The notes: generated from the sequence alone by a model not told the origin. A DNA stretch of 64,000 nt from a candidate division SR1 bacterium Aalborg_AAW-1 (GCA_001007975.1 CP011268.1:806001-870000), one strand, 5' to 3'. Positions 32,443 through 40,173 are shown, numbered from the stretch's first letter. Translations and numbers: made by a program.

Positions 32443-32470
32443 AGAAAAAAATCCTAGTAAACAGGATTTT
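32443..32470 (-). terminator. Terminator after the large surface protein gene
   Basis: AATCCTG and CTAGGATT pair on the minus strand, with a T run following. It overlaps the stop codon of the gene. Confidence 0.7.
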
Positions 32471-35400
32471 TAATTTTCATAAAGAGTATAGGTTAGAGTC
32501 CCTGTATAGGTTCCTATGGTTTGGTATGCAGGTATGTTTACTTGAAGATTGATTTTTGATCAGTAAATACCTTTTATCCCTCATCAAGTACCACTATTTC
32601 TTTTTATAAATGTGACAGGTGAAGATAGGCTCGTAAATGAGAGAATACTGCTATCAAGTATGACTGCTGGATTTGTACTTCCAGAGAGAGTAGTGATAGG
32701 ATCTGCTTTGATTTGAATGTTGCTCTTTGAGATCGTGGATCAGGTACTCGTTAGGTCTGAAATAGATAGTGTGGTATAATAACCACTGAGACTTCATTTA
32801 CTATCATCAAGCGTAAAATATTCAGATTGTATGTTCATACTTTGTCAGGTATTACTTCCATTTATGGATCAGATATGTAATGCACTTGGAGCATAAATAC
32901 ATATATCTCATGGCGCTATACTAGGTAATTCTACTATAAATGAACCAGAATATTGTACTGATCTATTATAAGGATTGGTCACAGTAAGTATTGTATTTTG
33001 TAATCATGTACCCAGTGATGGACTTATGATTCAACTAGGAAGTGACCATGTTCCATTTCCATGATTAGTTCCTGTATAAGTAGTACCATTAAGAGTAATA
33101 AAAATACTATCGAGAGGTCATTGTATTGTACCAGTAAGTAGTGGAGATCCTGTCATTACAAGTGATGTTGTTAATGTAGCAGGTTTTGCATAGATTGTGT
33201 AGATTTGTCCACTGCTCAAACTCGTATTATACATTCTTATATCATCTATACATCATCCAAAATAATTACTTGGAGTACTATCAGCAAACCTTCCTATATT
33301 TAATCTTTTATTCACATTAGTATCATAGGCTGTACTTACTGTATTGGTACCTTGTAATACGCCATTCACATAAATTTGTCTATTGGTAGGTGATGTAAAT
33401 ACTGTTGTAACCAAGAACCATTCAGTTGCATTAGCTGGTGTTGTTCCATTCGTATATCTTGCAGTTGTATTCTGTGCATTTTGTCTTCGTATTGTTGCAT
33501 TCAATTCTGTATTATACATTACACTTGTTGAATTTGATCTTGCATAGGATATAACTCCTTTAATTCCAGTTGTATTATTGGTCCTTACCCAGCTTGACAT
33601 AGTAAATGGATAACTTGTTACAAGATTTCCTACTCTTTCAAGATATTGATTCGTCCCATTAAAACACATGACTGTTTCTCCATTTTGATTGGCTGTTGTT
33701 ACGCCGTTGAAAGAAGTAGCATTATTACCATTTCAAGAGATATCCGTAAAAAGTCATGCTCCTGTTACAGATCCATCATATTGCACAATAAGTCCAGTAG
33801 CGCTAGGTATGAGTGAACAACTACTAGGAGTACCTGTACATTCTCGTCCTGATTCTATTTGACAACTTAAACTACATCAATCTCAGTTTGTGCTATTACT
33901 ATCATCACACTGTTCACTGGATCATGTTTGTAGTATTCCATCACCACAGATAGGCGCAGAGGCATCAACATTGAGATTGAATCAGTAAAAAATCAATCAA
34001 TCTGCTCAGGCATTGTCTCATGCTCTTATAGTCCATGTCCCAAAAGGTGATTTATTATAAAGAGTACTTAGACTTCCTACAGGCTGTCTTCATTCTCCAT
34101 TCAAGTTCCATATTCATCCTGCTACAGGTGATGTAGCTTCTTGATCATACGTAATTTGAGCTTGTGGACAATTCGTATTAGGAGTTGTATATGTCCCTGC
34201 AGTAGCGAGTGATACTTGTGTTCAATCAGGATGTATGAGAATAAATGATTTCTCATTAGGATAACAATTGGTGGTTCATCGTGGTCAAGTTGGAGATTCA
34301 TTATCGATAGGACGAAAATCAATTCCAATATTAATATCATTGATGAGAGATCCTGTATCGAATTGAACTCCTGTTGAGATTGTAATACTAAAATCTTTAG
34401 TACCATTATCAATATAATGAGTAGCATTAGCTCCTCCTGTATAAGAGAACATAAAGGTTGACGCTCCACAGGTATAAATAGTGACTATACCATCTTCTAC
34501 TATCGTAAGATTATTCTGATCTTCAGCTTGGCCATTATTACATTGAGTATTGGGATTTGTACTCAGACTATCGGCTGTGAATCATTCTTGTCCTTCATGG
34601 TAAACTTGTACTTCAATAGGGGTACCATCACTATCAGGTACTTGAATAAGAATGGGGACTGGTTGTGAGAAGATAAGATGTTCATTAATTTGTCAGAATT
34701 TTATTGTTTTTATTATTCATTCTTCACTTGATGATGGAGTATTGAATTGGTGGATTCCTTGTTCTTTTTTGAGCGTTGTAAGAGGACCAATATAAGGAAT
34801 TAATTCCCCAACATAAGTAGGAAGAATATAATTGTCTCAATTGAAAGTAACGGTGCTATCAATAATAGCTTGTAACGAATTTTGAATTGGTTTTTCTTCT
34901 TGAATTACAAATGAATTGATATCAAAGAGAGTACCTTCAGCAGTTTGTATATGAAGTCAGTCAGGTAGATATGCTGATACTGATTCTGTTTCATCTAAAT
35001 ACAGAAACCCAGAATTGATAGTTAGTTCACTATTAGTGCTTTTATTTTGTGATTTTCTTCATAATGGTTTATTGTTAGTATTGATAATATGATTAAGTAA
35101 TGCTTGTGATCATTGAATTGTTGTAATTTTTTTGTTATGAAAAAGAGGAGATTCTAAAAAATTTCATTGTTGTGTAAGAGTGTGACTTTGTACGATGGCA
35201 ATATCTTCATGATCATATATATATGTTGAAAGATATTCCACTAATGGTATAGGTTCCTGCATTTGAGTACGTACTGGATCAAGTACATACCATTTACTAT
35301 CAGATGCATAAATTATTGTAAATCTATGAGATTGTCTGATTGTCGATCAATCAGGACTAGTAGGTTGTTTAGTTACTATATCGATAACGGTTGCATTATG

Positions 35401-36204
35401 ACTACGATAGAGTGATTCAAGTACATTAATAAATGTTGCTCAAGTTTGATTTGTGCCAGTAAAAATACTATTTTCTGACGCGGATGTGTATGATAGCTTT
35501 TTGATTGTTGTGTTCCATATATCAATAGCATTACCTCTTATAATAGGTTTGATTCCTGATTGTATATCTGATGCTTTTAAGATGTTATTAATATTCAGAT
35601 AAGTAATATAAGAACAATATGTATTATCTGAGTTATGATCAATAACATTATATGATTCTATTGTATCTTTGATAAGGCGTCATTGACTATCAAGTACAAG
35701 AGATTTACTTGGAGCAGTTATTTCTATATTTTCTTTAGGCTGTTCAATAATGTCCTGATTCTGATCGATAGTATCATTTCATTCTTTTTGATCTGTTTCT
35801 AAGATATAGTCCTCAATATACGTTATTATGGTATTATCATCTTTACTTCCTGATATAAAATCATGTCATGTATTTATATCAATAATAACTTCTCCAGTGT
35901 TGAATATGCCAGTATCTTCTATTAATGTAGTAGTTTCTGTTAGATTATCAGCTCATGATGATAGATCTATGTTGTTATTTTCTATTATTGTATCCTTGTT
36001 ATTGTTTTGTCATTCATTTTCTTCTAGAGGTAATGTTATGTATTGTGTAGTATCTTCATTAGTTAGTGGTTGTTGGATCAATTCACTGATTATTTCATTA
36101 TCACTTGCAATACTACTAAAAAATGATGCCACAGTGATTGTTAGTATAAAACTAATGACAATAATGATAAGGTATGAAAACTTTTTAATAGGATGTAGTG
36201 ACAT
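32470..36204 (-). CDS. Large multidomain surface protein (LamG-like, P-domain-like, Cys-rich, WxL-like)
   Basis: The 1244-residue protein has an N-terminal signal anchor (residues ~8-32), an acidic Asn/Thr-rich stalk and a transglutaminase-like or adhesin-like middle part. A proprotein-convertase P-like beta domain (GIDFRP...GGIWNLNGEG...GTWTIRAGD) and a Cys-rich DUF4215-type segment (CGDGILQTGSSEQCDDSNS) follow, then a LamG/concanavalin-like domain (FNGTNQYLERVGNL to LNIGRFADS). The last ~130 residues resemble those of the 36375 protein and end GTYTGTLTYTLYEN. This end fits a WxL domain with Tyr for Trp. It is probably a giant adhesin bound to the cell wall. Confidence 0.85.
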
Positions 36205-36329
36205 AAGATTTGGTAAATTGAAATGGTATAAGAACAGTATAATAATAATTTTTTATTAATAAAATTATGATATATATACCGTTATTTTAACATTCTCATT
36301 TCTTATTTATTATATGAAAATAGTGACAA

Positions 36330-36356
36330 ATAAAAAAAAGCTCAATTATGAGCTTT
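36330..36356 (-). terminator. Terminator after the 36375 gene
   Basis: AAAGCTCA and TGAGCTTT form a stem with a long T tract on the minus strand. The gap to the next gene (36204) shows that the large surface protein has a separate transcript or relies on read-through. Confidence 0.85.
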
Positions 36357-36374
36357 CTTATATGAACTATTCTA

Positions 36375-36977
36375 TTAGTTATTATATAAAGTATATACTA
36401 ATGTACCTGTATACGTACCAACTGATTGGTATGCTGGTATAACGAGTTGTAGACTAGGAGTAGTTCCATATTTACCAATACGTCCATAATTAGCTGCATT
36501 ATCTCTTTTGATAAGAGTGACTGGATTGTTGAGTGGTTGGTATGCACCTGCTACTGCTGAGTTTACAACTACACTTGTGTTAGCTGTTCCTGCCATAGTT
36601 GTGATACCACCATTTGCTCTCATAGAAATATTTGATGATGCTATACTATTGGTACCAGAACCTTGTAGATTTCCAGACATTTGAACAGTTGTATAATATC
36701 ATGCATCAGCGCCTTTAAGATCTTCTACCCAGAATGGAGTTGCAAAAGTACCATTTACTGTTTGACTTGAAGTTGATACATTATAATTACCAAAATTAAA
36801 TGCTCCTTCGCTACCAATACATATGTCTCCTGGATTGATAGCAACAGTAACAGTAGTAGGTGTACTACAATTTGATCCTGATCATAAACATGCAGTACCT
36901 GCATCTACAAATGATGCTCCAGCAGTTACAACACCTGCTAATACTGCTAGTGCAAGTAATTTTTTGTTAATTTTCAT
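36375..36977 (-). CDS. Small secreted WxL-like surface protein
   Basis: The 200-residue protein has a clear signal peptide (MKINKKLLALAVLAGVVTAG) and one pair of cysteines after it. The mature part shows FWVEDLKGADAGYYTTVQ and ends GTYTGTLVYTLYNN. In Gram-positive WxL domains these places read V-x-D-x-RG-x-x-x-GW and YTATLTWTL, so the domain looks like WxL with Tyr at both signature Trp positions. WxL domains hold proteins to the cell wall. It is the first of four surface genes on this strand with the larger paralogue downstream. It is likely an abundant surface protein, judged by the short neat gene and strong terminator. Confidence 0.8.
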
Positions 36978-37023
36978 GGTTTTGTTTATATTTATTATAT
37001 AAAAGAATTTGTCAACGACATAA

Positions 37024-38319
37024 TTATATTATTCTTATTTTTTTATTTGTCAAATATTTTAATACTTTTTTAATTTTTGTATATAAATAATGTAGTTTTT
37101 TATAAATTATTATTATTATTTTACTTCAGTAACTTGTTTGTAAGAAATAAAGTATAATAATACCTCACCATGTAAAATAGATCATAGTATATCATAGCGT
37201 TGGTAAGATACTATCTTTGGAATTATGATAGGTAATAATATCATAAAATATGGCAGAATCAGGAGCAATATTATGATATCATGCAGTTTCATTGTGTTTT
37301 TCATCAGGAATAATAACACACATACCATAATTACTCATACATAACTTTCTATATTCATCATAATAAGCTAGAAGATTATTTTTAAGATTGTTAAGATCTT
37401 TTTCTCTTCATTCAGATTTATTATATTCTACTTTTTTATTGACACTTTCTTGAATATGAGATAGGACTCAAGAATCTGTACCAGGAGTAGTATCGTCTCC
37501 ATGAGATACAATTCATGATGTAGTTGATCAAGAAGAATTATTTGTTATCGGTTGTTCTTTAAATGGTATGGTTCGTCATCCTCAAGATGAAGATGATGAA
37601 AAAGTAGAACTATTATTGATATGGAAGAAATGAATATTGCTTGATGATGTATTACCTAGATAATCTATAGCTTCCACATACCAAAATACTGTTCATTGTG
37701 GTAACATATTTGTATCTAATGTGAGATGAGGTTCGTTGAGCTCTATAGATGTTGATCCAGAAAAAATAGGGACTAATGAAAAGTAAACTCTATATTTTTC
37801 TAATCCAATTCCTTGATCACTGCTTGATGTTCGAGATAAAGATAAGCCTGTAATAGTAATGATAGTATTGTCTATTGGTGTTGTAATGATTGGTGCTGAT
37901 GGTGGGGTTGTGTCTAACTGTAGATTAATAATATTACTATATACAATTCAACTTGTTGATGAGATAAAATGAGATTGATAAGTATATGTTTGTAGTTCAT
38001 CGGGGATTATAACACTATGTTCGTGATTATAATGATGAGTAAAAGATTCTCCAGTCAGAACAAGACTGTGCTCATTACGATATAAGTTGTATACTGACGC
38101 TTGTTCTGCACTAATACTTATAGTGACATTGGGATTGCTTGTCCAAAGTATTCATCATGATGATAATAAGAGTTGTCATGTTGTTGGAGCTATTTGTCCT
38201 GAATAAGGATAAATTATTTGTAATCCTATACTAATTCATGCTGTAGATGATACGATTCCATAGATGAGATATGCAAAAATAGCTACTAATCACAATAAGA
38301 TTGTATGACTATAGTACAT
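37024..38319 (-). CDS. Membrane protein with Ig/FN3-like extracellular domain
   Basis: The 431-residue protein begins with a membrane segment (TILLWLVAIFAYLIYGIV), has an FN3-like beta region (TPPSAPIITTPIDNT...GLEKYRVYFSL...FWYVEAID), a Ser-rich linker, a helical charged part and a second membrane helix (IYFTWGGIIILYFLQ) before a basic tail (SKIIIIIYKKLHYLY). About twenty UGA-Gly codons are present. It sits between the WxL-like protein gene and the DUF916-like gene, so it is probably part of the same surface machinery. No exact family is recognised. Confidence 0.75.
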
Positions 38320-38378
38320 ATAATAATGTTTAATTTTTGTGTAGAGAGTCATTATTCTCATAAGGTAAAGTTTGCTTA

Positions 38379-39572
38379 TTATAACTGTGGTTTTTTAGGT
38401 TTTGGTAATGATGATTGCTTTTTGGAAATACGTGTTGGCAGTTTAATTTCCTTTGTTTTTTTAGGTTTTACTGATGGTGATTTTTCTTTTGGTGTTATAA
38501 TACTATTTTTTACTTGTTTGTTGATATTTTTTTTAATGTATAATTTATAGAGTTTATAGATTATAGCTATAATGATAAGTAATATGAACCAAGGAAAGAA
38601 ATTGTGATGAGCCTCATCATAGAGTGTCACTATCTCTTGTGGTGCTTGCAATGCATAGGTTCATAAATAGATTCCTTCATAACTCATGATACCTTTCGCT
38701 TGTATAGGACCTCAAAGTATTCGTGTCATGTATCGAGGTATTGTATATTCAAATGTTCTTGTTTGTCATGGCAAGATAATTTGATCACTGATTTTTGTGG
38801 CGCTTTGTATGATATACCAGTCATTTATAACCATATCTACATTACCTGTCACACCAAGATTACCCTTATTAGTTACATTTCGTTTTATGTTATATGTCCA
38901 GAAATCTTTTGAAAAGAATTCAGATCGTTTATGAGATACGCGATAGATATAAAAATTAGGATTGTCGCTAAGATTAGTATATAATTCACTTTCAATAGGA
39001 CTAGATTCTACAAGAAGTTTGAAATCTCCTTGTACGAATGCATCAATAAATGAACCCACTCTTGAAAAGACATTGAGCATATTACCTCAAACTTCTTCTG
39101 TTTGGTTCTGAGCATCTAAGGCATGATAGGTAAGACATCCATAACTTGAACCAGCAAAACCTCCTGAGTAGAGTATATCGACAAAAATTCTTTTTACACT
39201 ATTAGGTTGAATTTCTAGCGTTTCTGGATAATTGCTCACATATTGTCAGAAATTTGTTTTTTCTCATTCAGGAAGACATGCTTTATTTTGAGATGAATCA
39301 TTAGTAACTGTCGCATCGACGAAATTGATTCCAATGGAGGCTTTTTTAGCGCTCGTATTGATGAAATCTATACAAATCACTGATTTCTCATCAATTTTAG
39401 CATCAATGAAAAGAGATTTGGCATCCGTATTTTTGGGATCGTTACAGTAGCGTGCTTTAATTTCTTTAATATCGGTCGTTGCGGTTGGTAACTCTGCCGA
39501 TTGAGCGAAAGTGGTTCCATATATCACTAATCAAGCAAGAATAAAACTAATAAATACAATAAATTTTTTCAT
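38379..39572 (-). CDS. DUF916/WxLIP-like membrane-anchored surface protein
   Basis: The 397-residue protein has a signal peptide (MKKFIVFISFILAG...FAQS), a long beta-rich extracellular region (ICIDFINTSAKKASIGINFVD, LPGQTRTFEYTIPRYM, GPIQAKG), a C-terminal membrane helix (WFILLIIIAIIYKLYKLY) and a strongly basic Lys/Pro/Ser tail. This layout (signal, two beta domains, membrane anchor, basic tail) is that of DUF916/DUF3324 proteins encoded next to WxL proteins in Firmicutes. The sequence similarity is not strong enough by eye to be sure, but the neighbours support it. It is the first gene of the surface cluster on the minus strand. Confidence 0.72.
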
Positions 39573-39712: not shown

Positions 39713-39741
39713 TTGACATTTGTTTATTTTTTTCGTATAAT
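39713..39741 (+). promoter_or_regulatory. Perfect consensus promoter of the 39781 gene
   Basis: TTGACA at 39713-39718 and TATAAT at 39736-39741 with a 17-base spacer, both boxes at full consensus. Confidence 0.92.
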
Positions 39742-39780: not shown

Positions 39781-40173
39781 ATGAAACATTTAGATTTTAA
39801 AAAAACATTATGGAGTCTTGCTTTTACTGTTCCCACTTATTTAATATTAAATTATTATTTTGGATTAGGATGGTATATGCTTATTTTGGGGGTTATATTA
39901 ATGTCATTATTTATTAATGGGGCAGAACTATATTATCGCCTTGAAAAATCTAAACTCCAACAAGAGTTCAAAGATATTCCTAAAGAAAGAATCTTTGATT
40001 TCTTGGGAAATAATAATGAAAAAATTTATGATTTTGATGGTACGCATAAATATGTATTGGTTTATGTGACATGTATACTTGCTTTACAGTTAATATTTAT
40101 GTTTTCTTACGAACTTTTATATATATTTATATTGTTGATAATAGCAAGAATATATCTTACTTATAAAAATTAA
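39781..40173 (+). CDS. Small membrane protein, unknown
   Basis: The 130-residue protein has hydrophobic helices at about residues 11-27, 29-45 and 97-125 with a charged central loop (YYRLEKSKLQQEFKDIPKERI). It has no UGA codon, a perfect promoter, an AAAAATT leader and its own terminator, like the five small genes at 281-2148. Family and function are unknown. Confidence 0.65.
   Translation: MKHLDFKKTLWSLAFTVPTYLILNYYFGLGWYMLILGVILMSLFINGAELYYRLEKSKLQQEFKDIPKERIFDFLGNNNEKIYDFDGTHKYVLVYVTCILALQLIFMFSYELLYIFILLIIARIYLTYKN

Follow-up and report, generated by a model that had tools for sequence, protein, structure and literature searches.

The window, a 64,000-nt stretch of SR1 DNA (bases 806001-870000 of a single 1.04-Mb contig) read with TGA as Gly (genetic code 25), probably encodes a WxL/WxLIP surface system of a diverged, Trp-less SR1 (Absconditabacteria) branch, in which a WxLIP-like protein would complete and tether WxL-like domains displaying LamG-type modules. 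The locus consists of four minus-strand genes between positions 32470 and 39572 encoding exported or membrane proteins (P0001 to P0004; Table 1), which are broken when translated with table 11 and long and intact with table 25. All four products begin with a hydrophobic export or anchor segment, and all lack LPxTG; the genome encodes one sortase. Gaps of 17 bases (P0001-P0002) and 46 bases (P0002-P0003) separate the first three genes, and a strong terminator-like hairpin follows the third, so that P0001, P0002, and P0003 may form one transcription unit and P0004 another. On the plus strand, at 39713-39741, a perfect consensus promoter (TTGACA-17-TATAAT) lies ahead of a divergent gene at 39781.

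Table 1. Genes and features of the WxL/WxLIP-like locus
Feature	Position	Strand	Parts or basis
P0001, WxLIP-like, 397 aa (signal peptide and DUF916/PGBD-like domain, then a putative second Ig-like domain, a C-terminal TM segment, and a basic tail)	38379..39572	-	Non-SR1 WxLIP profile; hhalign; PF06030 in relatives; Cys signature; TM and charge
P0002, FN3-like two-TM protein, 445 aa	37024..38361	-	Relatives adjoining WxL/WxLIP genes; TM
P0003, small WxL-like, 200 aa (signal peptide, one WxL-like domain)	36375..36977	-	Pfam; non-SR1 profile; AlphaFold2
WxL-like domain of P0003	36384..36875	-	Alignments; residue census
Intrinsic-terminator-like hairpin with T run, between P0003 and P0004 genes	36334..36359	-	
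P0004, large WxL-like, 1244 aa	32470..36204	-	Signal peptide, N-terminal region, DUF4215, LamG, C-terminal WxL-like domain
DUF4215/myxo_disulf_rpt Cys-rich repeat, P0004 aa 741-782	33859..33984	-	Pfam and NCBIfam scans
LamG (Laminin_G_3), P0004 aa 849-1001	33202..33660	-	E = 1.1e-18
WxL-like domain of P0004, aa 1083-1242	32479..32958	-	Non-SR1 profile, 2.4e-16; alignment

Common descent of the P0003 and P0004 domains with WxL domains, over their whole length, is well supported by sequence comparison. In both proteins the domain sits at the C-terminus of an exported product, and the two copies share 42% identity over ~155 residues (E = 6.8e-27), in keeping with an initial annotation that had described two exported proteins ending in a related domain. 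The GYYTT and final YTLY-type motifs quoted there are present as described: P0003 contains WVEDLKGADAGYYTT and has the C-terminal end GTYTGTLVYTLYNN, while P0004 contains TLDDSKGSLSGYYTT and has the C-terminal end GTYTGTLTYTLYEN. The Pfam WxL model (PF13731) covers the whole domain of P0003 at 24.0 bits (E = 4.6e-5), missing the gathering cut-off of 25 by one bit, and the Pfam scan gave no WxL match for P0004. As a non-circular test, WxL and WxLIP profiles were built without any SR1 sequence and scored on the window ORFs together with reversed decoys. The non-SR1 WxL profile matched P0003 (4.7e-18) and P0004 (2.4e-16) but no other window ORF and no reversed decoy. Profile-profile comparison of the WxL domains by hhalign gave 97.6% (E = 4.3e-12), and the control, the WxL profile against the unrelated WxLIP profile, gave 0.3%.

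Iterated searches of CPR loci gathered 29 proteins with a WxL domain, and a DNA-pattern scan from a four-sequence WxL alignment yielded four loci. Among the CPR relatives, Pfam WxL matched 17 of the 20 scanned (best, 8.7e-10). The CPR WxL profile recovers genuine Firmicute WxL proteins, including an Enterococcus faecalis small WxL at 67.6 bits and others from Pontibacillus and Lactiplantibacillus plantarum, and also matches small or C-terminal domains in Clavibacter, Cellulosimicrobium, and Streptomyces. The profile fails to find several other WxL proteins of Firmicutes, most of them large, so the distance between the CPR and Firmicute domains is real. Taken as a check on the initial annotation, the profiles point to WxL and WxLIP and not to another family. 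The WxL profile found no WxL chain among PDB sequences, and its weak glycoside hydrolase matches there were discarded.

Neither signature site of P0003 or P0004 carries Trp; the two sites are occupied by GYYTT and YTL, the latter within VYTLY in P0003. Replacement of Trp by Tyr had been proposed as a mark of this locus, and Tyr is indeed found at both signature sites, but the change is not special to it and follows a lineage-wide trend, as the second Trp is gone in 62/62 CPR and 3/3 Actinobacterial domains. At the first Trp position the 62 CPR domains have W in 28, Y in 23, F in 5, and H in 3; at the second, F (23) and Y (21) are frequent. The three Actinobacterial domains keep the first Trp and have Leu at the second site. 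Firmicute references mostly keep both, with one L. plantarum protein having Tyr at the second site. From this census of CPR, Actinobacteria, and Firmicutes, a second-site Trp seems to be a trait of Firmicutes, and within the sequences compared loss of the first Trp is typical of SR1. Because the Trp-x-Leu motif is absent and the Pfam cut-off was missed, we class P0003 and P0004 as a Trp-less WxL-like branch and not as strict WxL proteins.

Homology of P0001 to the DUF916/PGBD domain of WxLIP is also well supported by profile evidence. A Pfam/NCBIfam scan of P0001 alone gave no significant WxLIP (DUF916) match and no DUF3324 match, and the homology is therefore argued through relatives. P0001 directly reaches relatives at E ~1e-5, 12 of 14 of which match WxLIP_PGBD (PF06030; best, 4.9e-13). 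When P0001 and its closest relative were used as a profile against other CPR WxLIPs, hhalign gave 98.6% (E = 1e-15). Among the window proteins, the non-SR1 WxLIP profile matches P0001 alone, at 2.9e-16; one reversed decoy scored 5e-4, twelve orders of magnitude weaker. The WxLIP family profile matches the Enterococcus faecium WxLIP structures 9i1y and 9i25 (9i25_C at 2.2e-6), the latter titled as WxLIP bound to a long WxL, and the CPR WxLIP profile matches genuine Firmicute and Actinobacterial WxLIP proteins. The DUF916/WxLIP-like neighbor named in the initial annotation is thus borne out by this match and by the signal peptide, C-terminal TM segment, and basic tail of P0001. As to the profile check suggested for the protein at 38379, the DUF916/PGBD part stood, through the non-SR1 profile and hhalign, while DUF3324 had no Pfam match.

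P0001 nonetheless departs from the described family. The NQIDKxxxYFDLK motif of the WxLIP N-terminal region is absent, with NTDAKSLFIDAKI in its place, and for this reason we class P0001 as a diverged WxLIP homologue, not a canonical WxLIP. Four Cys residues (aa 43, 67, 99, and 146), which probably form two disulfides, are conserved in 17/17 SR1-family WxLIPs examined, and the pattern occurs in 0/9 reference and 0/8 other CPR WxLIPs. In the phylogenetic tree, 22 SR1 WxLIPs form one clade (support, 100/100) on a long stem (1.04), separate from the Firmicute sequences (99/95) and from a group that joins Actinobacteria with the other CPR. One SR1-family WxLIP, L075, falls outside the SR1 clade. 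A hydrophobic segment at aa 321-346 precedes a Lys-rich tail, the last 60 residues including 19 Lys/Arg and 2 acidic residues. By the positive-inside rule, this arrangement suggests that P0001 is anchored in the cell's own membrane, as opposed to the host membrane proposed for Firmicutes.

The association of the two families recurs. Among 49 genomes of the SR1 family, 21 have WxL, 21 have WxLIP, and 18 have both (Fisher p = 1.4e-7), and for 45 of the 56 WxLIP places a WxL domain is found no more than 10 kb away; the 11 that are left are on contigs without a WxL match. Homologous loci therefore do have the DUF916-like neighbor that the initial annotation expected. It had also proposed a search of CPR genomes for the same four-gene order. 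At least five further SR1 genomes (L084, L094, L095, L097, and L098) have all four genes, a P0002 relative included, but in several orders, that of the window occurring in L097 with one extra gene on the opposite strand. Across the phylum sample, WxL was found in 29 of 380 genomes and weak WxLIP-profile matches in 168. Of the 27 genomes with a best WxLIP E <=2e-44, 24 also have WxL, with the limit that ~10 of these top-scoring genomes gave sequences to the profiles and their scores are inflated accordingly.

Several loci are unusual in other ways. Three SR1-family genomes of 1.0-1.2 Mb (G383, G400, and G479) have nine WxL-domain matches each, a marked expansion given their size; beside a small WxL in G400, a seemingly giant ORF (>5,700 aa) was dropped, as the sequence is masked (N) and the length unreliable. 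In a same-class genome (L023, 11506-13961), three tandem WxLIP-like genes stand beside a small WxL. WxLIPs of families f31 and f41 (L026-L030 and L032) carry LysM after the C-terminal TM segment in 9/14 members; LysM is wall-binding, and simple topology would oddly place it inside the cell.

P0002, which the initial annotation had called an anchored beta-domain protein, has an N-terminal hydrophobic signal or anchor, an FN3-like region, and a C-terminal TM segment; aa 78-244 give a weak NCBIfam match to an exoglucanase model (E = 0.0021). Relatives adjoin WxL/WxLIP genes in L082 and in the five genomes with the full set, and P0002 is a fourth, conserved component that only this SR1 lineage has. 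The L082 contig (CAMZLL010000154.1) is labelled "uncultured Cryomorphaceae," yet its small WxL, adjoining the P0002 relative, is readable in code 25 and 62% identical to P0003; it is probably a mis-binned SR1 contig. As in P0004, LamG is carried by the large WxL proteins of L083/L098 (2880 aa) and L084 (2088 aa). The sole PDB match of P0004 is to the DUF4215-type repeat of pappalysin, and no family was found for its N-terminal 500 aa. Within that region, aa ~170-500 (34700-35700) show a Cys followed by SHRFTIIY and WYVLDP, a Cys-His-Asp hydrolase-like spacing (papain or transglutaminase-like) with no family match.

This SR1 bacterium is tiny and probably lives attached to a host, whereas the WxL wall-anchoring system is familiar from gut bacteria such as Enterococcus. 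In the published proposal for WxL systems, WxLIP inserts a strand into WxL and so completes its sandwich, WxL domains bind peptidoglycan, and the complex forms a platform (PMC10599100, PMC9772566). An AlphaFold2 model of P0003 (pLDDT, 70.6) has FimA-type donor-strand pilins as its nearest folds, with self-complemented FimA at Z 8.3, middling by the tool's own note. The AlphaFold model of P0001 was made from three sequences and is poor (pLDDT, 48), giving weak support at most: it aligns with 9i1y_B over both domains (Z 9.8, rmsd 18.4), a score equalled by many unrelated Ig-like chains, and its first domain resembles FimC/SfaE chaperone domains (Z ~9). Foldseek matches of this model to transglutaminase, Factor XIII, and RbmA were set aside as generic Ig-like similarity. 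A FimA-like P0003 and a WxLIP/FimC-like P0001 would fit donor-strand complementation, which we infer from the models. On this scheme, P0001 would stay in its own membrane through the C-terminal helix, with the lysine-rich tail inside, and its first Ig-like domain would give a strand or hairpin completing the incomplete, pilin-like WxL beta sandwich, as E. faecium homology and the FimA/FimC-like models suggest. The captured small and large WxL domains could then make up a platform located at the thin wall or the membrane, from which P0004 would project its LamG and Cys-rich modules towards a partner cell, and the four conserved Cys, probably as two disulfides, would stiffen the SR1 WxLIP. Wall binding and adhesion by the WxL-like proteins are presumed by analogy. 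More tentatively, and with rather more doubt than belief, the SR1 locus may represent a four-part, disulfide-stabilised WxL module, its WxL matches rising to nine per genome, where a FimA-like WxL receives a strand from a membrane-bound WxLIP resembling FimC. This would be a donor-strand surface system without an outer-membrane usher, showing large LamG adhesins on host-attaching CPR cells and having an FN3-like fourth component not known from Firmicutes.

Other explanations account for parts of these data. Direct peptidoglycan binding might have been lost, the WxL domains being held by membrane-anchored P0001 alone, with Tyr-for-Trp and the four-Cys WxLIP marking a membrane-tethered version. 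The loss of both signature Trp in the SR1 clade and the long branches and unique Cys pattern of its WxLIPs speak for this reading, but we consider it unlikely, since the genome encodes PBP transpeptidases and Trp loss need not affect wall binding: in models of the Firmicute proteins these motifs lie buried, with the predicted N-acetylglucosamine site on another face (PMC9772566). The similarity of the WxL domain to self-complemented FimA and of the first WxLIP domain to FimC/SfaE, together with tandem small WxL genes in relatives, could also mean that P0003 assembles into a polymeric fibre through donor-strand exchange, P0001 acting as a membrane-bound chaperone, in a Gram-positive-type counterpart of chaperone-usher pili. 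FimA-like sandwiches are common, however, and published work presents the Firmicute complex as a platform and not as a fibre (PMC10599100, PMC9772566), which makes a fibre less probable still. Convergence is disfavoured and appears very improbable. Under it, unrelated beta-sandwich surface proteins would share a similar C-terminal beta strand, as the absent signature Trp and the position of P0003 just under the Pfam cut-off would allow, but the non-SR1 profiles pick exactly three of the four proteins, for both families at once, the gene association recurs across genera, and the WxL-WxLIP profile control is negligible.

A diverged WxL/WxLIP branch, our preferred reading, extends a system that has been described nearly exclusively in Bacilli, with Firmicutes accounting for >91% of its known sequences (PMC9772566); a search of the open-access literature returned no paper linking WxL with Patescibacteria, CPR bacteria, or candidate phyla. 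The WxL/WxLIP set is found across CPR, and a distinct SR1 branch has lost both signature Trp with the gene cluster kept, so the Trp-x-Leu motif is not a defining feature of the system. For this reason such loci escape both annotation by name and the curated Pfam cut-off. The finding also provides concrete candidate surface proteins for SR1, and with them a lead on the way these bacteria construct their outer surface.

Compared with known systems, the SR1 locus shares with the Bacilli clusters (small WxL, large WxL, and a WxLIP of DUF916-DUF3324-TM, as in E. faecium locus A and L. plantarum) adjacent genes for a small WxL, a large WxL with a C-terminal domain, and a membrane WxLIP-like protein, as well as profile homology. 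Unlike them, it has no Trp at either motif, no Pfam match to DUF3324 or, in P0001, to DUF916, four conserved Cys in the WxLIP, a fourth FN3-like two-TM gene, and no LPxTG protein in the set. Other CPR loci (f31, f41, and others) likewise hold small WxL, large WxL, and WxLIP in one neighborhood, but they usually keep the first Trp, their WxLIPs group with Actinobacterial DUF916 proteins and not with the SR1 clade, and many have LysM after the TM segment. In the Actinobacterial clusters of Clavibacter, Cellulosimicrobium, and Streptomyces plasmids, DUF916 stands beside a small protein and LamG, GH43, or RICIN proteins, with WxL profile matches; these differ in having the first Trp, Leu at the second site, and no Cys signature. 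On three Actinobacterial plasmids (L079, L080, and L081), DUF916 genes lie beside small unannotated or RICIN proteins that match the CPR WxL profile, along with LamG or GH43 proteins, and these sets are apparently unannotated WxL-like clusters. Chaperone-usher pili (FimA/FimC) resemble the SR1 proteins in the predicted folds of the WxL domain and the first WxLIP domain, a likeness drawn from models alone, whereas the SR1 WxLIP-like protein is membrane-anchored.
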